From Chitinophagales bacterium (GTDB lineage: Bacteria; Bacteroidota; Bacteroidia; Chitinophagales; Chitinophagaceae): 64,000 bases of DNA. Below, piece after piece: positions 19,391 to 47,481 of the stretch. Made by a program: the position numbers and the translations under genes. Every line of letters starts with the position of its first letter. Position 1 is the stretch's first letter. Under the pieces are notes generated by a model that was not told the origin of the DNA, did not search any database, and saw only the letters and a program-made list of their open reading frames with translations. The DNA is taken from NCBI GenBank assembly GCA_026936105.1, contig JAIXKI010000033.1, positions 1 to 64,000 on the forward strand, read 5' to 3'.

Positions 19391-19500
19391 TGAGTATCCG
19401 AAGATACTGGCCGTTATGTAATTGCAATTCCATTTCCGTCAACACCATCCCATCGCCTAAAGTGATATAATACTAATAAGGGACAGGATGTTCCGCATAG
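19391..19500 (+). repeat. Intergenic repeat copy A
   Basis: First and most divergent copy of the dispersed repeat family. It has the order head hairpin (AGTATC at 19393-19398, CGAA loop, GATACT), the TTATGTAATTGCAATTCCAT block, a degenerate ATCGCC-TAA-AGTGAT hairpin, and the tail GGGACAGGATGTTCCGCATA. Lies between pcm and the first carbohydrate enzyme. The remaining bases to 19653 show nothing recognisable. Confidence 0.65.
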
Positions 19501-19653
19501 AGGGAATATAGTGCAATAAATATTTAATGACACCGGGAAGGATTCAATAAAATTGACCGGTGCAGCTGTCAACTGTATCGGAAATTGGCATACTCCTAAT
19601 CATTTTGGCCTGGCCGGATATAGGCAAGAAAAATGGTTTGGTAAGATTCTGCT

Positions 19654-20697
19654 TCAAAAATGTTCTGCAATAAAATTCTTAAATGCTATTCCTGTGCTCC
19701 GTAAAGTTGTAGTACCTGTTTCGTGCAGTCCCCTTGCTGAAGTGCCGTCGCCGTCATACCAGATGGCATAAGGCATTTTTATGTCCAATATGGCCTGCAT
19801 CATAGCCGAAGTTATCGCCGGATCCATATTGTCCTGCCCGTATTCATTGGTAATTACATTTTTCCCGGTCGCTCTCTTCAGATAATTCACCGTTTCTTTA
19901 AAGGCATCCATATTCAAAAATGAAGCGGTGGAAGAAAAATTGTCCGCGATGGGTTCATACCAGTGCAGATTCACAAAATCCAGGTTCAATATTTTATACT
20001 GCGAAATCAGATATTCTGCATTGCTCACTTTTCCGGCCAGATATGGATGGTTGGCTAATGCCGGCAGATCTGCGATAACAGACGGCGACATAGTCCGCGA
20101 TGCAAAGTTTGCTGCAGAGTCTGTCAAACCCCTCGCCATATAATCTTTCCAGACCAGAAAGAAGATCTCAGATGTAATTCCGCCATTGGTGACCTTTAGC
20201 CCCTGCTGGTGTGCTACATCAATTGCAGCTTGTAACTCAGAAATATAATCACTCAAAGGTCCGGTGTGATACTGATAGGTGTTTTCTTCATTTTCCACTA
20301 CTATCGATTCAGGGCGATAAACAGAGAGAAGATTGGACAATTTTGCCTTGTATGCTGCAATGTCTGTTGGAAATGGCGCTGGGTTTCCGGCTACAGCCCG
20401 ATCATTATTCACATTTAAAATCATTTTATAACCTTTCGCTATTCTTGCATCGTAGCCTGCATCGTTTGCTCCATTCCAGGTGGACAATAAAATAGCATAG
20501 CGTAAATAAGGTACGCGATATTGATCTGCCACTGCAAGTTTAAAAGTTGTATTGTTGGTGCCGGGAGTCGTGTCATTTACCAATACTCCGAAAGGATTGG
20601 AAAAGGTGGTTTTATCGGATGGATTAATTGGCGAATTCTTTTTACATGAAATGATTAAAAGTGTGCTAAAAATAATTAACAATGAATTTTTCATCAT
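19654..20697 (-). CDS. Secreted TIM-barrel glycoside hydrolase-like lipoprotein
   Basis: 347 residues with a lipoprotein signal (lipobox LIISC, Cys18), so probably tethered in the envelope. The fold appears to be a clan GH-A type TIM barrel. Asn136-Glu137 in VVENEENTY fits the acid/base at the end of strand 4, and Glu285 in NVITNEYGQ fits the nucleophile at the end of strand 7. FVNLHWYEP is also typical between them. I cannot assign the family number or substrate. It is the last gene of a three-gene minus-strand set (GH-like lipoprotein, beta-helix protein, this one), 38 bases after the beta-helix stop. ATG codons at 20697 and 20694 are both possible. Confidence 0.72.
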   Translation of the reverse strand: MMKNSLLIIFSTLLIISCKKNSPINPSDKTTFSNPFGVLVNDTTPGTNNTTFKLAVADQYRVPYLRYAILLSTWNGANDAGYDARIAKGYKMILNVNNDRAVAGNPAPFPTDIAAYKAKLSNLLSVYRPESIVVENEENTYQYHTGPLSDYISELQAAIDVAHQQGLKVTNGGITSEIFFLVWKDYMARGLTDSAANFASRTMSPSVIADLPALANHPYLAGKVSNAEYLISQYKILNLDFVNLHWYEPIADNFSSTASFLNMDAFKETVNYLKRATGKNVITNEYGQDNMDPAITSAMMQAILDIKMPYAIWYDGDGTSARGLHETGTTTLRSTGIAFKNFIAEHF

Positions 20698-20734
20698 TTG
20701 ATTCGTAATATGGAATAGTTAAAATTTATTTTTC

Positions 20735-22483
20735 CTATTGCCGCTGTTTGTTCTCACGTTTTTCTTCATTCCTATTCCTTCTGTTGCCTCCCCCTCGTAT
20801 ATCTGATGCCGAATTTAGAAATTGATTATTACTTGTAGTTAGATTAGAATTTTTTGAAATCAAATTGGAATTAGCTGCTATTACATGATCCAACGTTGCA
20901 TTATTAGTATTCATGAAAATAAAATCACCCGATGCTACCGACATATTGTTTAACTGAAGCCCACTAATGTTTCTTACGGCAAAACCTGCTCCTAATATGC
21001 TTTCATTTGCTTTCTTGCCGGCCTTTTTAGCATGTTTTCTTGCATTCCCACCTACAAGACCGTCCACAGAAACACGGTTTCCTGTTACAATACCGCAATA
21101 AGTAACATTATCAAAAACTATATTTCTATTGATATCCGAAAATTGATTTTCACCATAAATTGTAGTAAACAATCCGATTTTTGAAACATTTAATGTAAAG
21201 TTCTTAATGGTAATATTTTCTGATGCATACCCTTCATTATCGCCAATGGAAATACCTACGCTGGAGTTTACATAATGTGGGAAGTTGATATCCACATCGT
21301 GTATGTTGATATTTTTTGCTTGCGACAACAAAATAATATTTTCTCCTGCCCAATCACCATCTGCTTTTATATTGTACATTTCAATATTGTGTGTGCCGTC
21401 ATTAATAATAATAAAAGATGAAGCAAAATCAGATGCAGGACTGGGCAGGAATTTCCATACTACATCATGCACCGAATTATTGCTGGCTCCATAACCAAAA
21501 TCTACCAATTTCTTTTTCGCATGTAATTCCAGGTTGCTGAACTCGCATCTTGTAAACATATTACCGCCAATGGTGTTATAGGCTGAGATATAAAGATTTT
21601 CAAACTTACTGTTAAATGCGCCTCCCGGCTGCCACACACCGGTGAGACTATTTTTCATATCTTCTCTTGATATGGGTTGATTAGTCACTTCGTTTGTCTG
21701 AGCCTGCGTAAAGCTCATGTCGTGGATATAAATATTTTTTGAAGTGGCATTCCTGATCTTCAAAGATTTGTTTTGCGATTGTGTATTATTAATGTTGACA
21801 ATGACCGGAGCAGCGCCATCTTTGCTATCCAGATTTACTGAAAACGGATAAGTAAACTTTATCACGCCATTAGATATGCCTGATATCTCATTCAACTCCA
21901 TATTATGAAACCGGCTTTTCTTATCTTTTGTACCATGATTAAACCTGCCGCTACCCAATACTACTATTTCACCTTTATTAAGCTTTGATGCATTTGCAGG
22001 GTTTTTTAATATTACCTGTTGGTCATTCAGTTTTGCATCCTGAATTTCATATTGGTCAATTCCATCCTGAAAAATATTTGTATTATCGCCTGCTCCGTAA
22101 GTGCTGAAAAGAAAAATAGTCCCATGCAGAAAGTGTCCGCTTATCGGATCTACATTCCTGATTTCACTTTTATCTTTTCCGTCGCCATAGATTTCAATAT
22201 TGTTGCCCACAAAAATTCCGTCACCTGCGAAGGCATAAAACTCAGGCGGATTGGGTATATACAACTTTCCGCCCCCTTTGGCGTTCAGGTACGCAATCGC
22301 TTTGTGCAAAGCTGCCGTATCCTCTTTAAGGGATGCAACGCCCAGCCCTTTAGCGCCAAAGCTCATCAGATTAATGGTTTCGGTAGCAGGTGCTTGTTGC
22401 ATTAAGATGTTTTCTCTTTCTTGATTTTGTGATTTGCAGAAAGTAGTCATTGTCAGGATTATTATCAATGATAGCGATTTCAT
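20735..22483 (-). CDS. Secreted right-handed beta-helix protein (pectate-lyase-like superfamily)
   Basis: 582 residues. A signal peptide (MKSLSLIIILTMTTFCKSQ) is followed by a start typical of pectate-lyase-3/GH28-like proteins: INLMSFGAKG, KEDTAALHKAIAYLNAKGGGKLYIP. About 400 residues of parallel beta-helix repeats follow (ENITIKNFTLN, KNINIHDVDIN, HNIEMYNIKADG). It probably binds or cleaves a polysaccharide; no catalytic set can be named. The C-terminus is an unusual basic Gly/Asn/Arg/Lys-rich tail (GGGNRRNRNEEKRENKQRQ) that resembles a stretch in the divergent enzyme at 23844-25238. The gene lies between two TIM-barrel enzymes on the same strand. Confidence 0.8.
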   Translation of the reverse strand: MKSLSLIIILTMTTFCKSQNQERENILMQQAPATETINLMSFGAKGLGVASLKEDTAALHKAIAYLNAKGGGKLYIPNPPEFYAFAGDGIFVGNNIEIYGDGKDKSEIRNVDPISGHFLHGTIFLFSTYGAGDNTNIFQDGIDQYEIQDAKLNDQQVILKNPANASKLNKGEIVVLGSGRFNHGTKDKKSRFHNMELNEISGISNGVIKFTYPFSVNLDSKDGAAPVIVNINNTQSQNKSLKIRNATSKNIYIHDMSFTQAQTNEVTNQPISREDMKNSLTGVWQPGGAFNSKFENLYISAYNTIGGNMFTRCEFSNLELHAKKKLVDFGYGASNNSVHDVVWKFLPSPASDFASSFIIINDGTHNIEMYNIKADGDWAGENIILLSQAKNINIHDVDINFPHYVNSSVGISIGDNEGYASENITIKNFTLNVSKIGLFTTIYGENQFSDINRNIVFDNVTYCGIVTGNRVSVDGLVGGNARKHAKKAGKKANESILGAGFAVRNISGLQLNNMSVASGDFIFMNTNNATLDHVIAANSNLISKNSNLTTSNNQFLNSASDIRGGGNRRNRNEEKRENKQRQ

Positions 22484-22516
22484 TATTACTCTTTTAAATT
22501 CATAAAAAGTAAATTT

Positions 22517-23653
22517 CTATTTGCCAGCCTGCGCTTCAAGCCTGCTGTCATACGACTGTAGCTCACTCAGGGAAATATAGTTGGTCAATTGATTGGGCGG
22601 AACGGGTGTTTCAATAGCTCCTGCTCCCAATGAAATTCCTTTTTCTATAGTACTTCTTAAATCGGACAATTTATCAATAGTCGCTGTCTGATAGTAAATG
22701 GGTACCCCTTGTGTATTGTGAACAGTTTTCATGTATCCGCTTATATCGTACATCAAACCGCCCGGTAACCAATCATCGGCGCCTTGAGCATTATCATCAC
22801 GCAGTGAGTTATTTCCTAATACGGCCTGCTTACCTAAAGTGGCCACCATATAATCAATCACAGATTTAGTTGGAGCCGCATCTCTGGTTACACCGGGTGG
22901 CATTGCTATATTAATAAACTCATTAAATGCCATACTGATTCTTGTCTTCTTCCACACTTTCATCGCATCAATGGTACTTCGTATTGCTGCAAGGTCTTTC
23001 TCTGCCGTCCATCCGGCATTGATATAACTGGTGGAATTGGTTCCCGTTGGACCTCCATTCCCCGCATACCGGATGAATGCCTCACCATATAAAGCGCCGG
23101 TGCCTCCGTTTACAATCTCTCTCACCTCTGGAACATTGTCATAAAGGGCGGCAAGCTTTGCCTGAAAAGAGGCATACGCATTTAAAAACTCGGGTTGCCA
23201 GAACTTTGGCATCAAAGAATCGGAAGGGCTGGTAGCAACGGCCGCCAAATCGGTAAGCAGTGTAAAACTTCCGCTTTGTGTTTTTACCCAATCAGGAGAA
23301 GCCACGCCGTACATCACCCGGATTTTGATATTCATATTCAGTCCCGGATTGGCATTGTTTTGTTGTTGTGCATAATTAATCGCGTCATCTATCAGATTTG
23401 GTCTTACAATATCGCCGTTAGCATTGGGTTGCAGATCACGCCAGGCTACTCTTACCACCACGCAGTTTGCTATTTTCATTATATCAGGCGAAGCCGGGGG
23501 AGTTAAAAAAAGATTGCTGTAATTTCTGTTGGTAAGCCCTGCCGCCTGTGGTTTTAATTCATTTTGGTAGCCTGTTCCATTTATTTTGTCTTTTTTGCAT
23601 GACGTTAATAAGAAAAAGGCGAAAATGCAGAAAATGGAATAGATAAATCGCAT
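22517..23653 (-). CDS. Secreted lipoprotein, probable TIM-barrel glycoside hydrolase-like
   Basis: 378 residues with lipobox LLTSC (Cys19) and the SCKKDK start common in Bacteroidota lipoproteins. VVVRVAWRDLQPNANGDIV resembles the strand-1/2 region of clan GH-A and GH42/GH35-like barrels. IKIRVMYGVASPDWV and RISMAFNEFINIA suggest further barrel strands, the latter with an Asn-Glu pair. The family cannot be named with confidence and catalytic activity is not shown. First gene of the minus-strand set; divergent from the enzyme at 23844 across 190 bases. Confidence 0.6.
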   Translation of the reverse strand: MRFIYSIFCIFAFFLLTSCKKDKINGTGYQNELKPQAAGLTNRNYSNLFLTPPASPDIMKIANCVVVRVAWRDLQPNANGDIVRPNLIDDAINYAQQQNNANPGLNMNIKIRVMYGVASPDWVKTQSGSFTLLTDLAAVATSPSDSLMPKFWQPEFLNAYASFQAKLAALYDNVPEVREIVNGGTGALYGEAFIRYAGNGGPTGTNSTSYINAGWTAEKDLAAIRSTIDAMKVWKKTRISMAFNEFINIAMPPGVTRDAAPTKSVIDYMVATLGKQAVLGNNSLRDDNAQGADDWLPGGLMYDISGYMKTVHNTQGVPIYYQTATIDKLSDLRSTIEKGISLGAGAIETPVPPNQLTNYISLSELQSYDSRLEAQAGK

Positions 23654-23843
23654 ACTCAGTATCGAAGGGAGATTTTAGGTATTTGATGGCATCTTTATAA
23701 ATAGGTTTAATATGTTGTGCTAAAAACTTTTATTATTCATTGTATGAAAAGGAATATTGAAGAGGCATTATTTTTATTCCGTTAAACCTAAAGTTCCATC
23801 TGTCAGTCAGAAATACAATTCACATACCTAAAAAAAAGCAATT

Positions 23844-25238
23844 ATGAAAAAAATCAGAACTCATGCTCTATTTGTTTCTTTGGCTTCTTTATTGATTGCT
23901 TTTATTACTTACGGGTTTTCGGGCTTTCACAATGAAAAGAACAATGCAGATTCTTTTTTTAAAGATTATCGGACTTCATCAACCTTGAATGGTAAAGCAG
24001 GAAATGCAATCAGTAACATTAATGTGCCAAAGGTTAAAAAGGCAAGCAGCACACCTGCCAGGACAACTATTCAAAATAATAAAACAATCCAATCCGGTTT
24101 TCATAAAGTAGAGTTTGGTTTCAACATCGGCTTTTTACAAGACTACCGGGCAAATCAACAGATGTATGAAAATGCACTCAAAAGAATTCAGAGTGACGGC
24201 ATTCATGACCTGCGGGTTTATGAGCTGTTTACCAATGGTATTACACAACAGCCCGGAACTGCTGAACGGCTTGTAGAACACCTTGTTCACAATAACCGAT
24301 TCAATGTATTGCTTTGTTTATCCAATTTTCCAAACATTTCGTCTATTCAATATAAAACGACTGACAGGCCTGATTACAAGAACTCAGATGAAAAACAAAA
24401 TTTTACCAACAGATATCCTCCAGTAAACTTTGATGCCTATCAGAATTACCTGACCAACTTTATAGACTCGCTTCAGAAAAAGAATGTGTTGCAAAATGTG
24501 AGTTTTGAAATCGGAAATGAGCCTGATTCAAAAAGATTTTTCTGGGGTTCTCCTGATGATTTTATCAAAATTGCAAAATCAACTGCAGCAGCTCTTGAAA
24601 ACTATCAGAGGCCGGTTTACTGTTGTGGCTTTACTGCAGAATTTGCCAACGGAGGAGCAGCGCAACGACATGAATATCTTGACCTGATTCAGGATTCTGA
24701 TTTCAGGAAAAAAGTAAACTTATCTTTCCACTTTTACCAAAACAATAAATTTGAAATTCAGCACACAGATTTACCCGGTTTGAAAAACTCCATCATCACT
24801 GAGTTTAATTTTTATGCAAACATGAAAAAAGGTTCAGACAAGCTTGATATTGCCAATTCGCCGTTATTTGGTTCTCTGCTTATACAAATGCTTGACTTCG
24901 CCTATAAAAATGATATCAATAAAATTTATCTCTTCAAACTCATTGATGTAGCCAATAAAGAAGGGGCATTGGGTTTCTTTGATGAAAACGGAAATCCCAA
25001 GCCTGCATATAATGAATTTCTTAAAGTATTTAATGTTGTAAAAGATGGCTTCCGGGCAGAAGAAAGTGGTTCAGAAATAAAACTGATCGGTGCGAATCAG
25101 ACTATTGTCTATTCAAAGACTGAAGGAGTTTATACGAATCAGATATCAGGCAGAAATGGAGGCGGCAACAAGAGAAGAAATGTAAATAAAAATGCCACGG
25201 GTTTTTTCATGGGCGACTGGAAGGTTGTGAACAACTAA
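23844..25238 (+). CDS. Secreted TIM-barrel glycoside hydrolase-like protein
   Basis: 464 residues. The N-terminal hydrophobic segment (residues 8-26) is a signal or anchor, followed by a low-complexity linker to about residue 85. The barrel has Asn225-Glu226 in FEIGNEPDS as a clan GH-A acid/base and Glu320 in IITEFNFY as a candidate nucleophile; HDLRVYELF and LSFHFYQNN are compatible strands. The C-terminus carries a Gly/Asn/Arg-rich patch (GRNGGGNKRRNVNKN) similar to the tail of the neighbouring beta-helix protein. Divergent from the other three enzymes and likely part of the same polysaccharide function; no SusC/SusD pair is beside it. Substrate unknown. Confidence 0.72.
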   Translation: MKKIRTHALFVSLASLLIAFITYGFSGFHNEKNNADSFFKDYRTSSTLNGKAGNAISNINVPKVKKASSTPARTTIQNNKTIQSGFHKVEFGFNIGFLQDYRANQQMYENALKRIQSDGIHDLRVYELFTNGITQQPGTAERLVEHLVHNNRFNVLLCLSNFPNISSIQYKTTDRPDYKNSDEKQNFTNRYPPVNFDAYQNYLTNFIDSLQKKNVLQNVSFEIGNEPDSKRFFWGSPDDFIKIAKSTAAALENYQRPVYCCGFTAEFANGGAAQRHEYLDLIQDSDFRKKVNLSFHFYQNNKFEIQHTDLPGLKNSIITEFNFYANMKKGSDKLDIANSPLFGSLLIQMLDFAYKNDINKIYLFKLIDVANKEGALGFFDENGNPKPAYNEFLKVFNVVKDGFRAEESGSEIKLIGANQTIVYSKTEGVYTNQISGRNGGGNKRRNVNKNATGFFMGDWKVVNN

Positions 25239-25391
25239 ATTGTCAACTTTAGTTTTTATTGATAATAAAATATCTGGCAATGTTTATTTCGGATAAGCAG
25301 AAAAAAGACCATTGGTATGTAAATCAGCAGATGTATGAACTAAAAAACATGTTATAATCCAGAGAGAGTATTTACAATAACTTTTTCTTTC

Positions 25392-26852
25392 CTACCACTG
25401 AGAATCCTCACCTTTCTGTACCAATACAAATAATCCATCTTCATTGACATATCCTTTTTTATAAACAGCCATACGGTTTTTATCAAGGCCTATCATAACT
25501 TCGGCGTATGCCAATCCGGAAACCGGGTCAAAAGGTTTTATTTCATCAAATACAGGTAACACGGTTTTTCCTGTTGCCAGATTTATAAACCCAATGACAC
25601 CACCATGTTTGACTATAGGATTTAAATAATGACCTGAAGTAAAAAACAACTTTGGTGATTTTGGATTATACATGCTGCTAAGTCCATTATATTTATCAAC
25701 ATGGGCATCTTCCGGAGCGCCGTAAGAGCGGAAGAAATCTTTTGTAGAAATGAGTTTTAAATCTTTCGTGAGAAAATAGTTATACGAATAGGCCATTCCG
25801 TAAGGCTCAAAGTCATTGAATACGCCATATTTTGCTTCATCAGCATCTGTCTGTTTAAAAACAATTTCTCCTTTTTTATTGATAAAGGCATAGTCAAAGG
25901 AAGATTTATCTTTGGGTTCTACCCTCGCATATCCCTGCGAAAAATTATGTGGCCTGATGGAAAATGTATAAGGTATTACCAGTTCTCCTTTTGTATTGAT
26001 GAAGCCATATTTCACATAACCAAACTGATCCTTTTGGCCAACCATAGCCATTCCATCCGTAAATAAACCGGCATCATCAAATTCAGTATTTGTAATCCTT
26101 TTCCCTGAAAGAGTAGTATAAAAATATTTCCCATTGTGAGACCTGAGGGCTATGCCTTCGCTGATAGCAGCAGGGCTGCCATCGTCATGGATAATTTGAT
26201 ATTTTTTGCCATCTTTTGTAACAACAGTCTGAATATCCTGGTAACTATCACGCGCCCTCACATCACACATTAAAATTTCACCCGACGGCCTCCAGTTATT
26301 ATTGCCTTCAATGTATTCCAGTATTTTTCCCTTGGAATTGAGATAACCACTCTTACTAAGTCCGTCATAAAAATAAAAAAAACCGTTATTAAACATATAC
26401 CCGTTTGGCAGATCGTACGTCGCACCTTCCAATCTTAAATTATATTTATTGTAGGGAATAATAAAATTTCCGGCGGTATCTATCAGTGCGTACGCAGACC
26501 CTTTTCTGATAATCGCCGCTCCGTCATTAAAGGAAAACATTTCATCTGCTACAATCGTTTTTGCATTGGGAGCAAGCTGGCCCAATTTGGGTAGAAAGGC
26601 CTTGCCTATGGACTTAGATGTACTTTTGGTATTTGCATTATTATTGGCTTGTTGATTCGTAATGGCTTTCCCGTTATCTCCTTTATTGGGATTCTCTTTA
26701 TCAGTACTTTTTTTCTTGTGAAAAATATCGCTTAAAGCGTGAGCCACATTCTGAATAGATTGATTGATTTCTTCGGATTTTTTCTGTGCATTCACTTCTG
26801 GTGAGACGAATAGCAAAACTGAAAACAAAATGGAACAAGAACGTCTAATCAT
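25392..26852 (-). CDS. WG-repeat containing secreted protein
   Basis: 486 residues from the ATG at 26852, which opens a signal peptide ending in VNAQ; an upstream in-frame start at 26933 would add 27 residues and is rejected. After a low-complexity Asn/Lys-rich linker (about 35-85), the protein is built of WG (KWG/Leptospira) repeats: YALIDTAGNFIIPYNKY, YGFINTKGELVIPYTF, YAFINKKGEIVF, IGFINLATGKTVLPVFDEI. These repeats form a beta-structure usually thought to mediate binding; no enzymatic motif is seen. It lies just outside the carbohydrate-enzyme cluster and may or may not belong to it. Confidence 0.85.
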   Translation of the reverse strand: MIRRSCSILFSVLLFVSPEVNAQKKSEEINQSIQNVAHALSDIFHKKKSTDKENPNKGDNGKAITNQQANNNANTKSTSKSIGKAFLPKLGQLAPNAKTIVADEMFSFNDGAAIIRKGSAYALIDTAGNFIIPYNKYNLRLEGATYDLPNGYMFNNGFFYFYDGLSKSGYLNSKGKILEYIEGNNNWRPSGEILMCDVRARDSYQDIQTVVTKDGKKYQIIHDDGSPAAISEGIALRSHNGKYFYTTLSGKRITNTEFDDAGLFTDGMAMVGQKDQFGYVKYGFINTKGELVIPYTFSIRPHNFSQGYARVEPKDKSSFDYAFINKKGEIVFKQTDADEAKYGVFNDFEPYGMAYSYNYFLTKDLKLISTKDFFRSYGAPEDAHVDKYNGLSSMYNPKSPKLFFTSGHYLNPIVKHGGVIGFINLATGKTVLPVFDEIKPFDPVSGLAYAEVMIGLDKNRMAVYKKGYVNEDGLFVLVQKGEDSQW

Positions 26853-32217: not shown

Positions 32218-32228
32218 TCTTTTTTCCG

Positions 32229-37321: not shown

Positions 37322-37479
37322 TATTTGCCAACAGTGTTGGTTGGGGAAATAGTTTTTATTTATTGTTTCTAAATTTTGTATAATCACATCTTTCATATTT
37401 CAAAATTTTTATACGTTTATCTTATCAACATTGTTTGAAGTTACAACGATATTCTTATCATACAATACTCCTACTCGTA

Positions 37480-37674: not shown

Positions 37675-37747
37675 ATTTATTTCTCTTTCACGTGATCCTT
37701 ATAAGTGATCAGCAACCCGAATATTTACTAAGGATACCGGAATAAAC

Positions 37748-38638: not shown

Positions 38639-38936
38639 GATTAAATTTGTGGAACAAATTTATTGAAAAGAAAATTTAGCAGCTAAATTATTCAACCAAA
38701 TCATTTTGGATAAAGTGGCTTCAACTAAAGCTGTCTTAAAAGTAATTTCTTTAAATAACCAGTTTGCCATTCTCAAACGCAAAATCAGGATACGAAATGG
38801 AAACACCATTACTAAATTTAAAACAAATCCTATGATCCTGTCTCAATAATTATCTTTAAAAAATTTTTTGCAAAGACCGTAGTCAAAAATTTTATTACTG
38901 CCGGCGTGAACATCGCTTTCCACTAACTTCTTATTG

Positions 38937-40616: not shown

Positions 40617-40771
40617 AAATTTCTATATCCTTTTTCTTCCATACCGAATCTCCGTATATAATGATTACCATCCGGTGCCTCACATAATGAATATCTAAAA
40701 TTTCAAAATTAGGCTAATGATCCGGCGGCAGCTGGAGTAACTATGCTACATAATGAATCGCATTACCAGGT

Positions 40772-41260: not shown

Positions 41261-41678
41261 AAATACCAAATTGAAAACAGAACTTTAAAGATGGGTGGAA
41301 AATGAAGGTACATATAAATATGTGGTTCTGAAATTTTCTGTTTCGAAATCTTTTCCCATACCAGTCTCCGCAGGGACTCGTCGCGAGGTAGCTACAATTT
41401 CATATCAGTTTATAACGCTCTTCGAAACTTTCAGTTTCGAAAATTTATTACATCAGCTAATAGAGTCAATACATTGATGAGAGGTATTCTCCTTACAAAG
41501 TTGAATTTTTCATGGAGCAAAAAATTAGCTTCCCTCCTATTCGCTACCTTTTTCTTCAACAATAACTTTGGTTTTCTGCCAACACACAATATCAACCAAA
41601 AAAAATCAAAGAAGCTGTTATTGTCCGGCCATCAAAAAGATTACGATATTTGTGTATTCATAAAATGGCAATAAGAAG
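41261..41678. other. Divergent intergenic region holding repeat H
   Basis: 418 bases between the membrane protein and the Crp/Fnr gene. Repeat copy H occupies the middle. GATATTTG at 41645-41652, one mismatch from the -7 consensus, is the best promoter candidate for the regulator. A short open frame inside (about 66 codons) has no recognisable features and overlaps the repeat. Confidence 0.4.
41362..41503 (+). repeat. Intergenic repeat copy H
   Basis: Head AGTCTCCGCAGGGACTCGTC, nearly identical to copy I, then GAGGTAGCTACAATTTCATATC, then a perfect TTCGAAACT-TTC-AGTTTCGAA hairpin (41421-41441). The middle and tail modules are strongly degraded (about 41450-41503). Confidence 0.7.
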
Positions 41679-42260
41679 ATGAATGATTTGCTTTTTCAAA
41701 AAATAAAAGAATATGTAAAGTTGCAAGAAGGGGAAATCGAGCTTCTGGACAATTATTTTCAATGCAAACAAATTTTAAAAGGAGATTTTCTTTTCAAAGA
41801 AGGCGATGCGGTAAATTATGCAATTTTTGTAAAATCAGGTTTATTCAGAACTTATGTCGTAGATGAACAGGGAACAGAACATATTATGCAGTTTGCTCTT
41901 CCCGGATGGTGGACAGGAGATTTGGGAAGTTTTATTTCCGGTGAAACCACTAAGTTTTTTGTAGAAGCTTTAGAAAATTCGGAAGTTCTTACCATTTCAA
42001 AAAAATCCTGGGATGAATTGTTAGATAAAGCACCTTTCTATTTGGATTATCATCGTAAACTTCTTGAAAGAGGATTGGTTGCCACACAAAACAGGCTACT
42101 CGAAGCCTATTCTACGGATGCTACCAAAAAATACCTTCATCTTATAGAATCTTTTCCCGATATCTTACAGCGTGTTCCACTGTACATGATTGCCTCCTAT
42201 CTGGGAATGAGCAGAGAGACACTCAGCCGAGTACGAAGCCAATTATCCTTTGAAAAGTAG
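41679..42260 (+). CDS. Crp/Fnr family transcriptional regulator
   Basis: 193 residues. Cyclic-nucleotide-binding-like domain (about 20-125; CKQILKGDFLFKEGDAVNYAIFVKSGLFRTYVVDEQGTEHIMQFALPGWW) and a C-terminal winged helix (about 145-193; LYMIASYLGMSRETLSRVRSQL) with the recognition helix SRETLSRVR. No iron-sulfur cysteines. It is a short-HTH variety common in Bacteroidota. It lies 89 bases upstream of the outer-membrane/YceI genes, and a perfect palindrome in that gap sits where a class II activator would bind. Regulation of the downstream genes is therefore likely, but inferred. Confidence 0.92.
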   Translation: MNDLLFQKIKEYVKLQEGEIELLDNYFQCKQILKGDFLFKEGDAVNYAIFVKSGLFRTYVVDEQGTEHIMQFALPGWWTGDLGSFISGETTKFFVEALENSEVLTISKKSWDELLDKAPFYLDYHRKLLERGLVATQNRLLEAYSTDATKKYLHLIESFPDILQRVPLYMIASYLGMSRETLSRVRSQLSFEK

Positions 42261-42279
42261 GCTCATCTCCTTTTTACGA

Positions 42280-42325
42280 TTGTGACTTAAGTCAATGGAC
42301 AATCTTTTGACCCGGGATAGCTTTG
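42280..42325 (+). promoter_or_regulatory. Candidate Crp/Fnr operator plus -7 box
   Basis: TGACTTAAGTCA (42283-42294) is a perfect 12-bp palindrome within TTGTGACTTAAGTCAA, similar in form to Crp/Fnr boxes. A perfect -7 box TAGCTTTG follows at 42318-42325. If transcription starts about five bases after the box, the operator centre is near -41.5, the classic class II activator position; no -33 TTTG sits at the proper distance. The predicted leader is about 20 bases. Confidence 0.6.
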
Positions 42326-42349
42326 TGTCTGAAGATTTAAGCACACAGG

Positions 42350-43099
42350 ATGAAATACACAAAAAACAAGATACAGGATTTACACATCCAACCACGATTA
42401 GCTAAAATAGCCCGCTCTTTTTTAAGTAATCTATTATTTTTATTAGCCGTAGGCTTTATGAACCCCGCCCTTGCTCAGCAACGCGGTGAGGGTCATAACG
42501 AAGGAAATAATCCGCCAAGTCCGGTTATTGTTGAATCCTTAATAGGGAATAACGGCGTAAACCTAGAGACTGTTTTTTCAAAGAAATTTAATCCGGGCAG
42601 TCGCTTTGGAGTTTTTGGTATCGTTGATTTGTATGGCGTTTATAAGGCAAATGAACAATCATTTAAAAATCAAAATATGTCTCAAACCCAATTAACTTAT
42701 CGAATAGTAAAGGGGTTAGATGTAAGTGCCGGCGCTTTCTTTGAAAAGCATTCAGGCTTTCGGCCTACTGCGGGGTTGCAATACAATCTTTTTGCAGGTG
42801 ATTTTCATTTGTTAGTAGCGCCAAGAATTGATTTAAGCCAAACCTACAATGGTGAATTGTTGGGGTTTGTGGAGTACACGCCAAAAATTGGAAATGACTG
42901 GCGGTTATATTCTCGTGCACAAGGAATGTATAACAGGGATTTGAAAAATGGGCTACATTCTATTAGCTATGTTTGGGGAAGACTTGGAGTTTCCTATAAG
43001 ACCTGTCGTTTTGGAGTTGGAGCCAATTTTAATTCCTTTGGGCCCATGAAAATGAAGGAGAACAATTATGGGTTATTCGCAGGTGTCCTGCTTTTCTAA
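42350..43099 (+). CDS. Outer-membrane protein of unknown function
   Basis: 249 residues. A long positively charged N-terminus precedes a hydrophobic signal (FLSNLLFLLAVGFMNPALAQQ), with cleavage expected after ALA. The mature part alternates in the manner of an eight-to-ten strand beta-barrel (GSRFGVFGIVDLYGVYK, LTYRIVKGLDVSAGAFFEK, FHLLVAPRIDLSQTYNG, WGRLGVSYKTCRFGVGANFNSF) and ends in LLF. No ligand can be inferred. First gene after the candidate class II promoter, 38 bases before the YceI gene. Confidence 0.7.
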   Translation: MKYTKNKIQDLHIQPRLAKIARSFLSNLLFLLAVGFMNPALAQQRGEGHNEGNNPPSPVIVESLIGNNGVNLETVFSKKFNPGSRFGVFGIVDLYGVYKANEQSFKNQNMSQTQLTYRIVKGLDVSAGAFFEKHSGFRPTAGLQYNLFAGDFHLLVAPRIDLSQTYNGELLGFVEYTPKIGNDWRLYSRAQGMYNRDLKNGLHSISYVWGRLGVSYKTCRFGVGANFNSFGPMKMKENNYGLFAGVLLF

Positions 43100-43137
43100 G
43101 AGCATTATTTATCAATAAAAATAAAATCAAACCAAAG

Positions 43138-43683
43138 ATGAGTAAAATCAAATGGGTGGGAGACCCGGTTCACTCCCAGATTCAGTTTTCAGTAAGACAC
43201 ATGGTCATCTCAAAAATCCGTGGTGAATTTAAACAATGGGAAGCTTTTGCAGAAACCAATGGAGATAACATGGAAGATGCTGAAATTTCTTTTCAGGCAA
43301 CTACTGCCAGTGTAGATACCGGAAGTGAATACAGGGATAATGACCTGAGGTCGGACAAGGGATTATTTCAAACAGAGCAGTTTCCTTACATGATTTTTAA
43401 ATCAACTTCTTTCAAGAAAAAAAATGAAGAAGACTATGTGCTGACCGGCGATTTGACGATCAGAGATGTAACGAAATCAATTACACTGGATGTGGAATTC
43501 GGCGGCATTATTACCGACCCGTATGGAATGCGCCGGGCTGGGTTTTCCGTTACAGGTAAGTTGAATCGTAAAGATTACGGCATGACCTATAACCAATTGA
43601 TAGAAACAGGCGGCGCCGTGGTTGGTGAAACCATCAATATTGACATCCATATTGAATTTACGCATCAGGCAGAAGGCAAATAA
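43138..43683 (+). CDS. YceI family protein
   Basis: 181 residues with the lipocalin-like YceI fold. The start is WVGDPVHSQIQFSVRHMVISKIRGEFKQW, the family's D-x-HS-xx-F-x-V-x-H pattern. FQATTASVDTGSEYRDNDLRS, FKSTSFKKKN, LTGDLTIRDVTKSITLDVEFGG and GFSVTGKLNRKDYGMTYN follow. Members bind isoprenoid or other hydrophobic ligands. No signal peptide is seen here, so this copy would be cytoplasmic, unlike Escherichia coli YceI. A terminator follows the gene. Confidence 0.95.
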   Translation: MSKIKWVGDPVHSQIQFSVRHMVISKIRGEFKQWEAFAETNGDNMEDAEISFQATTASVDTGSEYRDNDLRSDKGLFQTEQFPYMIFKSTSFKKKNEEDYVLTGDLTIRDVTKSITLDVEFGGIITDPYGMRRAGFSVTGKLNRKDYGMTYNQLIETGGAVVGETINIDIHIEFTHQAEGK

Positions 43684-43698
43684 GTGTTTTATGAACTT

Positions 43699-43732
43699 GA
43701 GTACCAGCTGAAGAATCGGGTGGTACTCTTTT
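43699..43732 (+). terminator. Intrinsic terminator after the YceI gene
   Basis: GAGTACCA (43699-43706) pairs perfectly with TGGTACTC (43721-43728) around a 14-base loop, followed directly by TTTT. It separates the OMP-YceI transcript from the NmrA/MFS genes. Confidence 0.7.
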
Positions 43733-43775
43733 ATCAAACAATAGTTGAGGCATATAATCACCGGGAGTAATAAAT

Positions 43776-44648
43776 ATGGATAAAAAGCCTGTTATAACAG
43801 TCATCGGCAGTACCGGAACCATCGGTAGTGAACTAGTTGACTTGCTGTCAAAATCAGGTGCAACAGTTCGTGCAGTACTAAGAAACATCAACCGTGTAAG
43901 AGAAATCCACGGAGTGGTATGGGTACAGGCTGATGTGAGCGATGCCTCTTTGCTGGAAGCGACTTTAGCCGGAACTGACCGTTTGTTTTTATTAACAGGC
44001 AATCGTGCAGGTTTTGGAAAAACTCAAATTGAAATTATTAAAACTGCTGAGTGTTTGGGTGTGAAACATTTGGTGAAGCTTTCTGCTTTGGGAGCCAGTC
44101 CACGAACAAAATCAGGATTGGCATTAGAGCATTGGGAAGCAGAACAGGCTTTAGAAAATACCAAAATGACCTGGACCATTTTAAGGCCACACGCTTTTAT
44201 GCAAAACTGGTTGGGCGAAGAAGCAAAAACCGTTAAGGAAGAAGGCGCCATTTATGCGGCCATTGGTGAAGGAAAAGTTCCGTTTATTGATGCCCGTGAT
44301 ATTGCTGCTGTAGCTGCCGAAGCTCTATTATACCCGGAAAAACATCAGGGACAACGCTACGTGTTAACCGGAGGTGAAGCTATAGGTTTTCAAAAATTGG
44401 CTGAAGCGCTATCAAAAGCTATTGGTAAACCGGTTGTTTATAAATCCTTATCAATGGAAGAAATGCGGACACGGATGGAACAACAAGGCATTCCCACAAA
44501 ATCAATAGACTCTCTTTTGGCTTTGGCGGCTTATCAAAAAGCAGGAGGAGCAACAGAAAGAACATCTGACAGCGTCCAGGAAATACTGAATCGTCCACCA
44601 CATTCTGTTGAAGATTTTGCCAAAGATTATCGGGAGTATTTTCTATAA
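43776..44648 (+). CDS. NmrA-like NAD(P)-binding protein (atypical SDR)
   Basis: 290 residues with an N-terminal Rossmann nucleotide motif VIGSTGTIGSELVDLL (residues 7-22), VQADVSDASLLEATLAGTDRLFLLTG, and HLVKLSALGASPRTKSGLALEHWEAEQALENTKMTWTILRPHAFMQNWL, the layout of NmrA/QOR2-like reductases. The YxxxK catalytic pair of classical SDRs is not evident, so it may sense NADP or reduce quinones. Upstream of an MFS exporter on the same strand, 16 bases apart. Substrate unknown. Confidence 0.9.
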   Translation: MDKKPVITVIGSTGTIGSELVDLLSKSGATVRAVLRNINRVREIHGVVWVQADVSDASLLEATLAGTDRLFLLTGNRAGFGKTQIEIIKTAECLGVKHLVKLSALGASPRTKSGLALEHWEAEQALENTKMTWTILRPHAFMQNWLGEEAKTVKEEGAIYAAIGEGKVPFIDARDIAAVAAEALLYPEKHQGQRYVLTGGEAIGFQKLAEALSKAIGKPVVYKSLSMEEMRTRMEQQGIPTKSIDSLLALAAYQKAGGATERTSDSVQEILNRPPHSVEDFAKDYREYFL

Positions 44649-44664
44649 ATTACGAATTCGTCAG

Positions 44665-45891
44665 ATGAATAAGAACACACCTGTAAAGCATATCGGGAAA
44701 TCCTTTTTAATCGTACTCCTTGGTTTATTGGCTGCGTTAAGCACACTAACCATTGCTATGTACATTCCGGGATTTCATGAAATGGCAGCGCACTTCAAAG
44801 TAGATGAAAGTAAGATTGCTTTTACCCTGACGTCTTATTTTATCGGTATTACCATCGGTCAGTTGATTTACGGACCTATCATAGACCATTTTGGCCGAAG
44901 GAAACCACTGATAATTTCTTTGCTGGTTTATATTCTCACATCTGTCCTTTGCTCGGTTGCCGATTCCTTAGATATGATGATTACGGTACGATTCCTTCAG
45001 GCTTTGGGCGCAAGTGCCGGAATGGTTTCCGCATTGGCAATCATCACAGATGTTTTTGAACCCCATCAAAGAGCAAAAGCTTTTTCTTTGGTGATGACGG
45101 TTTTGGGCGTTGCCCCGGTTGTTTCTCCCACTTTAGGCAGCTTTTTTGTAGCCGCTTATAATTGGGAAGCTGTTTTTTATGCATTGACGGGTTATGGGAT
45201 GATACTCACTTTTCTTATTTTCTTTTTTCTGCCTGAAACTATTAAGTACCAAACCACAGAAAAGTTGGATACAAAAGGCGTATTGAACAATTATGCCGCC
45301 GTTGTCAAAAACAAAACTTTTAGTTTGTATGCTGTTGGAGGTAGTTTGGCCAATTCCATTATTTTCACCTTTGTGGCGGCTTCTCCCGCTGTATTTATGG
45401 GGCATTATAAAATCGCCCCCAAACAGTTTGCACTTTTATATGGCATCACCACCATTGGCGCTATGGCCGGAAATTACCTGAATGGTATTTTGGTCAAAAA
45501 GATTCATTACCAAAAAATGATGATGATAGGTTCAGTCTGCTTATCGGTCCTGACCATTGTGTTTGGTACTGCGGCCTGGTTGATGAATGATTTTCCTGTA
45601 GAAATGCTTATTGTCTCTTTGTTTCTGATATTGTTAACTGTTGGGCTAATCTATCCGAATACCGTCACTTCAGCGCTGTCACCCTTTAAAGAGTTATCCG
45701 GTTCGGCCTCCGCAATGAACGGCTCGCTGATGATGGGAATGAGTGCGCTCCTCACAGCTGTGGTAGGTGCATTTGACTCTGCTGCGCCAATAACTATGTT
45801 TGCAATAATGGTTGTCGCCGGTCTTTTGGTTTTTATCTTTCTGCAAATTGCCAAACGATTTGTACAACAGATGAATGATAAAAACGGATAA
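44665..45891 (+). CDS. MFS drug-efflux transporter, Bcr/CflA type
   Basis: 408 residues from the ATG at 44665; an upstream TTG frame overlaps the previous gene and is not used. Twelve hydrophobic helices. Typical drug:H+ antiporter motifs are GQLIYGPIIDHFGRRKPLI (motif A, G-x-L-x-x-P-x-x-D-x-x-G-R-R) and FLQALGASAGMVSALAIITDVF. Exports unknown small molecules, consistent with a stress or detoxification role beside YceI and NmrA-like proteins. One base separates it from the BshB1-like gene, so the two are co-transcribed. Confidence 0.93.
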   Translation: MNKNTPVKHIGKSFLIVLLGLLAALSTLTIAMYIPGFHEMAAHFKVDESKIAFTLTSYFIGITIGQLIYGPIIDHFGRRKPLIISLLVYILTSVLCSVADSLDMMITVRFLQALGASAGMVSALAIITDVFEPHQRAKAFSLVMTVLGVAPVVSPTLGSFFVAAYNWEAVFYALTGYGMILTFLIFFFLPETIKYQTTEKLDTKGVLNNYAAVVKNKTFSLYAVGGSLANSIIFTFVAASPAVFMGHYKIAPKQFALLYGITTIGAMAGNYLNGILVKKIHYQKMMMIGSVCLSVLTIVFGTAAWLMNDFPVEMLIVSLFLILLTVGLIYPNTVTSALSPFKELSGSASAMNGSLMMGMSALLTAVVGAFDSAAPITMFAIMVVAGLLVFIFLQIAKRFVQQMNDKNG

Positions 45892-45892
45892 A

Positions 45893-46612
45893 ATGAAATT
45901 AGATATTTTGGCTTTCGGTGTGCATCCCGATGATGTGGATTTCAGTTGTGCCGGTACCTTGCTGCGACATATTGAGTTAGGAAAAAAAGCAGGCATCATT
46001 GATTTAACCGCAGGCGAAATGGGTACCCGTGGAAGTGGCCCGCTTCGGTTGGAAGAAGCACAGAAAGCAGCAAAGATTTTGGGAGTAGAAGTGCGGGAAA
46101 ATTTAAGATTTGAGGATGCTTTTTTTAGTAACGATAAGGAACATATTCTTGAAGTCATAAAGATGATCCGCAAGTATCAGCCCGAAATTGTTTTGGCAAA
46201 TGCGATTAGAGACCGTCATCCCGACCATGGTAGAGCCGCTAAATTACTTTACGATGCTTGTTTTTATTCCGGATTGATTAGAATTGAAACTTCGATTGAT
46301 GGTGAACAGCAGGAAGCCTGGCGACCCAAAGCGGTTTATCATTACATTCAGGACAGAGACATTAAGCCTGATTTTTTAGTAGATATCACTCCGTATTTTG
46401 ATAAAAAGATAGAAGCTATCCTTTCTTTTTCATCCCAGTTTTATAATCCGGAGAAAAAAGATTTACCCATAAGTACGCTTTCCGAAAAAGGATTTTTAGA
46501 TATGTTCAAAGGCCGTGCACGGCATTACGGCAGAGAAGCCAATTTTGAAAAAGCCGAAGGCTTCACCGTGGAAAGAACACCGGGAGTAAATAATTTGTTT
46601 GATCTTTTATAA
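45893..46612 (+). CDS. Bacillithiol biosynthesis deacetylase BshB1-like (PIG-L family)
   Basis: 239 residues from the ATG at 45893 (MKLDILAFGVHPDDVDFSCAG). PIG-L/LmbE-type zinc N-deacetylase with the metal motif HPDD and the second histidine motif RHPDHG (IRDRHPDHGRAAKLLYDACFYSG). LTAGEMGTRGSGPLRLEEAQKAAKILGV matches the BshB1 subfamily, which removes acetyl from N-acetylglucosaminyl-malate in bacillithiol synthesis. BshA and BshC are not in the window, and an extra copy beside an efflux gene could instead act on bacillithiol conjugates, as Bca-type amidases do. Gene symbol withheld for that reason. Confidence 0.85.
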   Translation: MKLDILAFGVHPDDVDFSCAGTLLRHIELGKKAGIIDLTAGEMGTRGSGPLRLEEAQKAAKILGVEVRENLRFEDAFFSNDKEHILEVIKMIRKYQPEIVLANAIRDRHPDHGRAAKLLYDACFYSGLIRIETSIDGEQQEAWRPKAVYHYIQDRDIKPDFLVDITPYFDKKIEAILSFSSQFYNPEKKDLPISTLSEKGFLDMFKGRARHYGREANFEKAEGFTVERTPGVNNLFDLL

Positions 46613-46621
46613 TCTGGTAAA

Positions 46622-47083
46622 ATGAAAAAAACCAAAAATCCAGAAGATGTTCCCAAACTTTTCGCAGAATATTGGAACCAGCGCAGACCGGATTTAATGG
46701 CAGCGCTTTTTGAAGAAGATGCCGACTTTATCAATGTAGTTGGCTTGTGGTGGAACAACCGTCAAGATATTTTTAAAGCCCACGACTATGGTTTAAAAGT
46801 AATTTTTAAAGATTCAACCCTGTCTATTACTAAGCTCAAAACCAAAATGCTTTCCGAAAAATCAGCAGTTGTCCACACCAAAATGAAATTAGAAGGTCAA
46901 ACAGGAATTTCAGGTGAGAAGGGTGGATTGAGACACACTGTATTTTCATTTATTGTTAGAAAAGATACTGAAGGCTCCTGGTGGGCTGTTTCTGCTCAAA
47001 ACACTGACATAGTAAGTGGCGTAGAAACATACATCAGAACAAGGGACGGAAGTCTAAAACCGGTAGATTACCGTAAAAAATAA
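46622..47083 (+). CDS. SnoaL-like / SgcJ-EcaC family protein (NTF2 fold)
   Basis: 153 residues in an NTF2-like cone fold. It begins with a helix (DVPKLFAEYWNQRRPDLMAALFEEDADFINVVGLWWNNRQDI) that is the typical start of the SgcJ/EcaC/DUF4440 group, then strands around STLSITKLKTKMLSEKSAVVHTKMKLEG and HTVFSFIVRKDTEGSWWAVSAQNTDI. The function within this broad family is not predictable. Last gene of the unit, nine bases after the BshB1-like gene. Confidence 0.85.
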   Translation: MKKTKNPEDVPKLFAEYWNQRRPDLMAALFEEDADFINVVGLWWNNRQDIFKAHDYGLKVIFKDSTLSITKLKTKMLSEKSAVVHTKMKLEGQTGISGEKGGLRHTVFSFIVRKDTEGSWWAVSAQNTDIVSGVETYIRTRDGSLKPVDYRKK

Positions 47084-47184
47084 ATCTGTTGAATTGAAAT
47101 AAACATCCGTCTCTAATAACCATACACATTTGCAAGTCACATGAAGCCACACCACAAACCAAAACTTCCGGTACCGAAGATTTA

Positions 47185-47481
47185 TTTCATCAATAAAAAC
47201 GATAGATTAGCTATACGGGATAAGATGTTCCGCAAAGCTTAGGTCTCCGCAGGGACTCGTCGTCAGGTAACTGCAATTCAATTTCTGTCAACGCTGTTTC
47301 ACCCCTCGCTTTTCGAAACTTCCAGTTTCGAAATCCTATTCCATCGCTTTCAGCGATACATTTCCCTTCATCATTCCATAATCACAATTTCACCCCTCGC
47401 TTTTCGAAACTTCCAGTTTCGAAATCCTATTCTATCGCTTTCAGCAATACATTTCCCTTCATCATTTCATAATCACAATTT
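47185..47481 (+). repeat. Intergenic repeat copy I with 91-bp tandem duplication
   Basis: A degenerate tail module (47185-47242), then a full head (GTCTCCGCAGGGACTCGTCG) and core (TCAGGTAACTGCAATTC). Then come two tandem 91-bp units, 47300-47390 and 47391-47481, that differ at about three positions. Each unit has the TTCGAAACT-TCC-AGTTTCGAA hairpin and an ATCGCT-TTC-AGC(G/A)AT hairpin. The second unit runs into the last codons of the phosphoglucomutase gene (stop at 47473-47475), so the first unit carries a copy of that gene end. Confidence 0.85.

Follow-up and report, generated by a model that had tools for sequence, protein, structure and literature searches.

The nine intergenic repeats described here appear to be shared joints for gene exchange between two related bacteria, since they lie at places at which gene blocks have been exchanged, lost or relocated between the two. 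The window is a stretch of 64,000 nucleotides from the genome of a Chitinophagales bacterium (G000), and the relative is another genome of the same genus (G001). We consider it likely that the repeats are BIME-like mosaics of REP sequences and that homologous recombination between REPs on the same strand exchanges the modules they enclose. The repeat unit and its structure, its association with REP-associated transposase genes, the breakpoints, and the differing content and order of the modules were observed directly.

All nine places in the window are intergenic repeats on the plus strand, as the preliminary description had it (Table 1). They are mosaics of the sequence modules M1, M2, M3 and M4, built from two-hairpin units. 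M1 is a AGTCTCCGCAGGGACT hairpin plus GTCAGGTAACTGCAATT, M2 a hairpin TTCGAAAC..GTTTCGAA, M3 the hairpin ATCGCTTRAAGCGAT and M4 the hairpin GCGRGRC..GYCYCGC; repeats A, B, C and D have the make-up M1-M3-M4. Repeat F is the weakest member of the nine because it has only a 105-bp element in common with G and is unmatched by the M3-M4 covariance model, which did not match H either. This model, built from 22 copies of G000 (five from the window), has 25 matches with E below 1e-10 in that genome. At E<=0.01 neither 1-19.4 kb nor 47.5-64 kb of the window has a match, in agreement with the earlier description, which saw no copies at 1-19.3 kb and 47.5-64 kb. The 28-kb region proposed as the repeat's place does hold all copies of the window; the genome search suggested for detecting clusters showed that the family itself is genome-wide and clustered, and it is found in all four genomes examined of the genus.

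The REP unit consists of two hairpins, CTCTGCGARRC..GYYTCGCAG - TATTC - YRTTGC..RGCAA(C). Across 53 copies, compensatory pair changes gave 64 cells with both sides changed, compared to 16.5 +/- 7.7 in shuffled data, and 0 of 500 shuffles reached that number. M2-M3 and M3-M4 are one unit read on opposite strands with M3 common to both. Like a REP family, the repeats are many-copy short intergenic palindromes with a conserved structure, and the model matches both strands at offset places, as in BIMEs and REPINs, where two inverted REPs form the unit. By eye, no GT[AG]G tetranucleotide lies beside either hairpin in the 53-copy consensus, and the canonical GTAG REP was rejected for want of this stem-foot. 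CGTC follows the M1 hairpin, which makes M1 at most a candidate CGTC-tagged REP; M1 had no match at E<=0.01 in the RAYT loci examined. An Rfam scan of the window at gathering thresholds gave 0 matches, and no tRNA genes were found in it. At window positions 19300-38000, neither promoter-like sites (58 versus 54.0 in shuffles) nor terminator-like sites (12 versus 15.6) were in excess.

Table 1. Repeats, enclosed modules and conserved flanks in the window.
Feature	Positions	Strand	Evidence or remark
PCMT (protein-L-isoaspartate O-methyltransferase), left conserved flank	18678..19331	-	Pfam PF01135, E 1e-54
Repeat A, M1-M3-M4	19392..19504	+	G001 collinearity stops at 19500
Module A-B, ORFs of 347, 582, 378, 464 and 513 aa (513-aa: WG repeats)	19505..27133		Pfam
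Repeat B, M1-M3-M4	27134..27239	+	G001 alignment resumes at 27237
Module B-C, one 1604-aa DEAD + UvrD helicase ORF (27403-32217 +)	27240..32230		Pfam
Repeat C, M1-M3-M4	32231..32344	+	Break versus G001 at 32225/32232
Module C-D, 56-aa ORF (32423-32593 +)	32345..32653		Across helicase gene in G001
Repeat D, M1-M3-M4	32654..32773	+	Break versus G001 at 32710-32736
Module D-E, 483-aa DUF481 protein (-)	32774..34395		Pfam
Repeat E, M2-M3-M4	34396..34486	+	Alignment to G001 runs through it, uniquely among the nine
Module E-F, 161-aa ORF (+)	34487..35237		ORF list
Repeat F, 105-bp element common only to G, 90% identity	35238..35341	+	G001 alignment stops at 35236
Module F-G, 602-aa erythromycin-esterase family protein (-)	35342..37480		Pfam
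Repeat G, 'F' element + M2-M3-M4	37481..37677	+	G001 alignment resumes at 37586
Module G-H, DUF808 protein, molybdopterin oxidoreductase + cytochrome b561, 165-aa ORF, all (-)	37678..41328		Pfam, ORFs
Repeat H, M2-like, M1, M2	41329..41453	+	G001 insertion here
Module H-I, Crp-like, NmrA-like, MFS, PIG-L and other ORFs (+)	41454..47160		Pfam, ORFs
Repeat I, M2-M3-M4, M1, then two tandem 91-bp M2-M3	47161..47478	+	G001 insertion here
Phosphoglucomutase/phosphomannomutase, right conserved flank	47473..49194	-	Pfam PF02878-PF02880

In relatives, an intact REP-associated tyrosine transposase (RAYT, NF047646) has units of this repeat family on its flanks, which makes the window repeats REP/BIME-type elements of a Bacteroidota RAYT clade; they lack the canonical GTAG foot. 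Three of the four proteins scanned match the NF047646 equivalog above its cut-off (E 5e-31 to 4e-29), and the fourth, from another subfamily, falls just below it. In the close RAYT clade (L115-L123, L133), a plus-strand model match starts no more than 100 bp downstream of the gene at 9 of 10 loci and a minus-strand match no more than 100 bp upstream at 7 of 10; at L123 the unit is visible by eye. The catalytic motifs NH[IV]H and YIH[EN]NP (HuH and Tyr) are conserved in the four aligned proteins. Among 147 genomes of the family, a close RAYT (A2 E<=1e-70, a cut picked after the table was seen) is present in 13 of the 25 with R1 hits and in 10 of the 122 without (p 2e-6), and any RAYT (E<=1e-6) in 21 of 25 and 74 of 122, respectively (p 0.04). 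A RAYT with cognate units is encoded in G001 and in G003, another relative. Our searches of G000 found no intact cognate RAYT, and its three RAYT remnants have no repeat model match beside them. The G000 copies may therefore be relics. That no transposase is visible, as first described, is true of the window and, as far as our searches of G000 showed, of an intact cognate enzyme in that genome; it is the relatives that carry it.

Like the known REP/BIME systems with a RAYT (TnpA-REP; Bacteroidetes subclass 2.6, Bertels group 5), the family combines scattered intergenic palindromes with a flanking HuH-Tyr transposase gene that has both catalytic motifs. It differs in its atypical two-hairpin unit with a TATTC spacer, in lacking the GT[AG]G foot and in having copies at module boundaries. 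The fit to the motif table for subclass 2.6 (group 5), as given in the accessible part of PMC6006769, is partial, with WT/WR here versus WQ and YIHENP/YIHNNP versus YIH[QN]NP.

Eight of the nine window repeats are synteny breaks relative to G001. The 7.7-kb module A-B is missing from G001; no nucleotide match to it was reported in G001, G002 or G003, and its GC content is 37.9% compared to 43-44% outside the array. The module with the 56-aa gene (window 32232-32736) is 88% identical to G001 C2:8437-7933, where it precedes the helicase block, and helicase module B-C is 94% identical in G001 C2 and is placed there after it. On G001 C10, 9.7 kb of other genes precede the block that follows repeat G. 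At repeat H, G001 has a 3.1-kb insertion with the repeat plus about 70 bp on both sides, and at repeat I a 1.6-kb insertion between M1-M3-M4 copies. The end of the G001 alignment at 35236, at repeat F, is near a G001 contig end. The window's break at 52.27 kb has no REP within 150 bp. Modules G-H and H-I are each 95% identical to G001, and the shared modules 88-95%; the left flank is 77-80% identical. G003 lacks the array, and 1.7 kb separate its PCMT and phosphoglucomutase genes. The content between these two genes differs among G000, G001 and G003, with the G001 flanks on separate contigs. The suggested check, whether genes between repeats come and go as units, finds A-B missing in G001, the whole array absent from G003 and C-D moved.

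Both G001 and G003 are MAGs, and a number of G001 contigs stop at a REP or close to one, as might be expected if contigs of co-resident strains had been misjoined at REPs during metagenome assembly. Such an artefact is very unlikely. G000 C21 and G001 C2 each join flank DNA of 77-80% identity and module DNA of 88-95% identity on one contig, G003 independently shows the array-less site, and the junction REPs show divergence between genomes.

Over all the stretches compared, 22 of 58 internal alignment-block ends between G000 and G001 lie within 150 bp of a G000 REP (1.2% expected, p 4e-27; intergenic control 6.2%, p 2e-12), and 5 of 24 REP loci are collinear with G001 versus 77 of 96 control intergenic points (p 9e-8), p-values that are optimistic because the compared stretches were chosen for containing REPs, block ends are paired, and G001 contigs frequently terminate at a REP or close by. 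The count of 58 leaves out alignments under 500 bp and merges overlapping palindromic matches on opposite strands; for 32 of these ends, the 150 bp to either side contain no REP. Just one of 33 G000 REP loci is spanned by a single alignment to the G001 DNA compared, and at that locus both genomes have the REP. No filled/empty insertion pair (REP ends, target-site duplication) was found when the 33 loci were compared with G001. One REP-to-REP block of 13.9 kb is 95% identical (G000 C26:19074-32993, G001 C41:28668-14808) and has different neighbours in the two genomes. Over 628 windows, again leaving out alignments under 500 bp, mean identity is 92% within 1 kb of a REP versus 84% beyond 5 kb, and one 20-kb stretch away from REPs is 72-77% identical. 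High identity is not confined to REPs: among windows lying beyond 5 kb of a REP, 17-22% still reach at least 92%.

These arrangements resemble an integron, in which the repeats would be recombinase sites and modules would move as circles of gene plus site. As in an integron array, modules lie between structured sites on the same strand and are gained, lost and reordered, and the 56-aa-gene module, which in both genomes ends on the right with an M1-type repeat, changes place. A site-specific cassette system is nevertheless highly improbable: none of the nine repeats has an ordered RYYYAAC/GTTRRRY attC core pair (30-130 bp apart, either strand), no integrase is among the 19 window proteins scanned with Pfam, and repeats are genome-wide and flank RAYT genes in relatives. 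Alignment ends also do not fall at one fixed nucleotide; they scatter between roughly 120 bp ahead of the REP model match and roughly 140 bp past it (neighbouring copies aside). The cassette array of the preliminary description holds for behavior but not for core sites or a fixed crossover, and its remark that no integrase is visible agrees with the window proteins scanned. Its other suggestion, a REP-seeded recombination zone, is supported by modules gained, lost or reordered at the repeats and by REP-type units flanking RAYT genes in relatives.

Copies on the same stretch agree in strand in all 38 pairs in G000 and all 59 in G001. They are also more similar within stretches than between them (0.789 versus 0.730 in G000, 0.816 versus 0.743 in G001; p 0.0005 each), after 3 of 33 and 2 of 47 loci were excluded. 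Strand is not uniform over long range, and in other genera both strands occur on one contig (e.g. G012 C3, G105 C55). A common orientation had been suggested to reflect replication polarity, whereby REP insertion into single-stranded DNA of the lagging strand would set orientation and the breaks would be incidental. IS200/IS605-type enzymes do favor the lagging-strand template, according to the accessible text of PMC6006769. Raw GC skew was not informative, but gene-strand-controlled GC3 skew was clear per contig. By that measure, REP orientation opposes the leading strand in only 8 of 12 areas and matches it in the other 4 (p 0.39), and on G000 C32 a REP is on the minus strand at 63 kb and on the plus strand at 233 kb under the same skew sign. 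Orientation is uniform within stretches but split relative to replication, and polarity as its cause is highly improbable.

Instead, a RAYT nicking the two-hairpin units in single-stranded DNA would have spread the REP copies, the copying presumably being the work of that enzyme. Once dispersed, the REPs would offer portable homology: same-strand copies could recombine either inside one chromosome or with DNA of related cells, and the enclosed module would be deleted, inserted, moved or replaced. The window region would be one exchange zone between the PCMT and phosphoglucomutase genes. Since a module can be gained or released without inversion only between REPs of the same strand, arrays would stay uniform in strand and neighboring copies alike. 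The exchanges were presumably made by homologous recombination and not by the RAYT, between lineages that we infer exchange DNA.

It is also possible, though unlikely, that the RAYT drives mobility directly, its REP endonuclease cutting two same-strand REPs and freeing or inserting the DNA between them. An HuH/Tyr enzyme with cognate units is at hand in G001 and G003, and uniform strand suits a single-strand mechanism. However, modules were exchanged in G000, where the searches found no intact cognate RAYT, modules can be as long as 14 kb, and REP orientation does not follow the replication strand. The repeated stretch at H, a REP plus about 70 bp, is explained by homologous recombination. Likewise doubtful is an integrase-free cassette system in which the RAYT of related cells nicks two same-strand REPs and frees the module, which would make RAYT and REP a means of single-strand accessory-gene exchange in Bacteroidota.

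Homologous recombination between same-strand REPs, as proposed for the NIME arrays of Neisseria, would be the best mechanism. Going by the available parts of the sources, neisserial dRS3/RS arrays adjoin variable genes and are thought to promote recombination with acquired DNA (PMC3898611), and NIMEs are linked to the largest number of rearrangements (PMC9778887). Neisserial minimal mobile elements (MME) place different whole-gene cassettes between two conserved genes, likewise here between PCMT and phosphoglucomutase. The present repeats differ from NIMEs in sequence and phylum, in their strand-uniform arrays and in a RAYT clade flanked by the unit, whereas CGTC repeats, dRS3 among them, are not associated with transposase genes (PMC3733652). 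Placement in Pseudomonas is the opposite, many strain-specific genes being in REP deserts (PMC3390384, available part). Among the results listed by our literature searches, judged by titles and abstract openings, no study treats this Bacteroidota REP family as exchange joints, and no paper in the collection searched pairs Chitinophagaceae with repetitive extragenic palindromic sequences.

A Bacteroidota REP family marks the sites of entry, exit and relocation of accessory modules between two species of one genus, and a host-level effect of REPs, as exchange junctions, becomes testable. The 'atypical' REP unit of a Bacteroidota RAYT clade gains a sequence definition. If the RAYT-driven reading were true, uniform strand would be a signature of single-strand module exchange.

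All nine intergenic repeats of the preliminary description (A-I) were found in the window, and all are on the same strand. They are mosaics of sequence modules, of which M2, M3 and M4 form hairpins. At E≤0.01, all window copies detected by a covariance model of M3-M4, built on 22 copies, lie within 19.4-47.5 kb, leaving 1-19.3 and 47.5-64 kb empty as had been described. The array has a GC content of 39.2% versus 43.9 and 43.4% outside. In 53 aligned copies, two stems are paired in 93.3% of cells versus 87.9% in shuffles, a fraction biased towards structure as the copies were chosen with the model. Both sides had changed in 64 cells compared to 16.5 in shuffles, a value reached by none of 500 shuffles, and shifting the partner columns by 1-3 lowers pairing to 26-49%. 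Read by eye, forward M2-M3 and backward M3-M4 are both the REP unit CTCTGCGARRC..GYYTCGCAG - TATTC - YRTTGC..RGCAAC, so M2-M3-M4 is two facing units with a common M3. DNA resembling the 105-bp 'F' element is present at several places in the relative G002 (contigs C32, C1, and C15), and the element may be a separate repeat family.

Make-up and positions of the features discussed (G000, the genome of the window; G001, a relative of the same genus)
Feature	Sequence	Coordinates	Description
Repeats A, B, C, D	window		M1-M3-M4
Repeat E	window		M2-M3-M4
Repeat F	window		105-bp 'F' element, nothing else
Repeat G	window		105-bp 'F' element and M2-M3-M4
Repeat H	window		M1-M2
Repeat I	window		M2-M3-M4, then M1, then two tandem M2-M3
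'F' element copies	window	35238-35341; 37481-37585	direct repeat, 90%, either side of the erythromycin-esterase module
High-identity stretch	window	27237-52265	94-95% identity G000/G001
1604-aa protein	window	27403-32217 (+)	DEAD/helicase-C half and UvrD half
WG-repeat proteins	window; G000 C26	25392-26933; 14502-17393	two different REP-bounded modules
Small ORFs	C28 cluster (locus L001)	9688-10358; 10330-10614	between REPs, a pair of 108-aa HTH-like and 113-aa RelE-like, by eye; 94-aa ORF beginning in REP-derived sequence
Shared block	G000 C26; G001 C41	19074-32993; 28668-14808	95% identical over 12.8 kb, 97% over 1 kb
RAYT remnants L114, L113	G000 C2	39194-39313; 39762-39881	568-bp tandem duplication; second-subfamily RAYT with an internal deletion
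Site of the G001 RAYT	G000 C32	61.6-64.3 kb	other DNA

Modules are missing, reordered or different at the repeats between G000 and G001, bearing out the expected presence and absence of modules between relatives. The window can be aligned to G001 C2 and C10, with breaks at eight of the nine repeats; the alignment passes through E only. The left flank up to repeat A is 77-80% identical. G001 lacks the 7.7-kb module A-B, for which the scored candidates in G001, G002 and G003 (40 of 140, 106, and 93 first-look candidates) gave no nucleotide match. After A, G001 continues with the 56-aa-gene module at 88% identity, the helicase module at 94%, and D onward at 93%; G000 has module A-B, the helicase module, the 56-aa-gene module and D. 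Between F and G, G000 has the esterase module and G001 9.7 kb of other genes (ECF sigma, glycosyltransferases, DUF5686), with C2-to-C10 continuity across F uncertain because C2 ends there. G001 is longer by 3.1 kb at H, with the repeat and ~70 bp at each side of the extra DNA, and by 1.6 kb at I, where the extra DNA lies between two M1-M3-M4 copies. In G003 (82% complete), the flank genes for PCMT and phosphoglucomutase are 1.7 kb apart on C9, and the DNA between them contains two other genes but no model match. The model also finds nothing next to the two flanks in G002, whose contigs, however, stop at these points.

The high-identity stretch continues past the array into phosphoglucomutase and the next genes, while PCMT and the DNA leftwards are 77-80% identical. 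The import seems to take in core genes. In the DNA compared, collinearity is lost in all three relatives at ~52.25 kb (52.27 kb versus G001), with no REP-model match at that break. PADLOC matches the 1604-aa protein best to helicase components from other systems (DpdF, PsyrT, GajB), only a lead towards a role in defence. In the C28 cluster, the two small ORFs look like a toxin-antitoxin pair, and a 94-aa ORF begins in REP-derived sequence.

On the genome-wide scale, 906 kb of G000 with 33 REP loci and 512 kb of G001 with 47, all picked around REPs, were compared. The collinear blocks have 58 internal ends. A G000 REP lies no more than 150 bp from 22 of them (expected 1.2%) and a G001 REP from 25 (expected 2.7%); 26 are that close to a REP of either genome, and 32 to none. 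Only 6.2% of intergenic bases are that close to a REP, and the enrichment still holds against this control (p 2e-12). Of 24 REP loci alignable on one flank or both, five stay collinear, versus 77 of 96 control intergenic points >3 kb from any REP (p 9e-8). For the remaining nine REP loci (33 in all) and 154 control points (250 in all), the compared G001 DNA contains no flank. The block shared by G000 C26 and G001 C41 has unlike neighbours in the two genomes, and G001 C9 joins both C26 flanks across 0.9 kb containing a REP. Across 628 aligned 500-bp windows, mean identity falls from 92% up to 1 kb from a REP to 89-90% between 1 and 5 kb, and to 84% farther away. A 20-kb C9 stretch, picked before its identity was known, is 72-77% identical. 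Since 17-22% of the windows >5 kb away reach 92% identity or more as well, the neighborhood of REPs is enriched in recent common ancestry without being its only place. We read the enrichment, from alignments, as probable exchange between lineages.

The family is not private to the window region, which forms positions 1-64000 of contig C21 in G000. In G000 (3.6 Mb, 37 contigs, 99.9% complete) the model has 67 matches at E≤1, counting opposite-strand palindromic shadows, and all four genomes compared from the genus have matches (59, 72, 8, and 43 at E≤0.01). With stricter filters, it is present in 25 of 147 genomes of the bacterial family. The distribution is genome-wide, with the copies in clusters.

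A Pfam Y1_Tnp search gave 18 matches in the three relatives and none in G000. The genes on G001 C11 and G003 C17 are surrounded by tandem and inverted copies of the REP unit; at the other loci of this set the model, covering 13 of 15 source sequences, matched only in L074, ~1.2 kb from the gene. NCBIfam identifies these two proteins and that of G001 C17 as REP-associated tyrosine transposases (RAYTs). From a RAYT scan across genomes, 39 of the best 80 loci and three G000 remnants were searched with the model. In a close clade of ten loci (L115-L123 and L133), matches start within 100 bp of the gene downstream on the plus strand in nine and upstream on the minus strand in seven; in L123 the REP unit is visible by eye. 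The other 29 loci and the three remnants had no model match. At E≤1e-70, a threshold set once the table had been seen, a close RAYT is encoded in 13 of the 25 family genomes with REP-model matches and 10 of the 122 without (p 2e-6), and any RAYT (E≤1e-6) in 21 and 74, respectively (p 0.04). No transposase had been visible in the window; no intact RAYT of the close clade was found in G000, while its relatives have RAYTs. G000 has one divergent RAYT carrying two in-frame stops. The L114/L113 remnants carry their own hairpins (TATCCTGAG..CTCAGGATA, by eye), seemingly a REPtron reduced to its ends. In G002, with few repeat copies, the RAYT match is in two adjoining pieces in different frames.

Copies >400 bp apart in the same stretch share a strand in 38 of 38 pairs in G000 and 59 of 59 in G001, and copies are more alike within a stretch than between stretches (p 0.0005 in each genome). 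Long-range exceptions are C32 (minus at 63 kb, plus at 233 kb) and weak matches on C1 and C9. Replication polarity had been offered as a cause of the common orientation. Third-position GC skew agrees in sign between plus- and minus-strand genes in all 12 areas, giving each a clear leading strand. The REPs run against it in eight areas and with it in four (C9, C2, C31, and C32 near 63 kb; p 0.39), which does not support that explanation. In other genera, matches on opposite strands share a contig (G012 C3, G105 C55), so strand uniformity is established only for the genus of G000.

On the features tested, the repeats are not canonical GTAG REPs, nor is the array an integron, the stricter sense of the cassette array first suggested. 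Among known systems, the probable kin are Bacteroidetes RAYTs of subclass 2.6 (group 5), whose flanking structures are 'atypical' (PMC6006769). In behavior, the repeats resemble the NIME arrays and minimal mobile elements of Neisseria (PMC3898611, PMC9778887). Many strain-specific genes of Pseudomonas are located in REP deserts, according to PMC3390384; the association in G000 and G001 is the reverse.

In the simplest account, the REPs were seeded by a RAYT, and recombination between REPs on the same strand, sharing ~100-230 bp of sequence, would remove, insert, and move modules. Possibly the RAYT itself drives module movement, but no intact close-clade RAYT was found in G000. The REP units, their association with RAYTs, the breaks, the moved blocks and the contrast in identity are observed. 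From these we infer homologous recombination to be the agent of module exchange, with DNA exchange between lineages as its likely source. Under recombination between REPs, the strand would be preserved both when a circle carrying a module and a repeat is inserted and when foreign DNA replaces a module, and arrays would therefore grow in one orientation.
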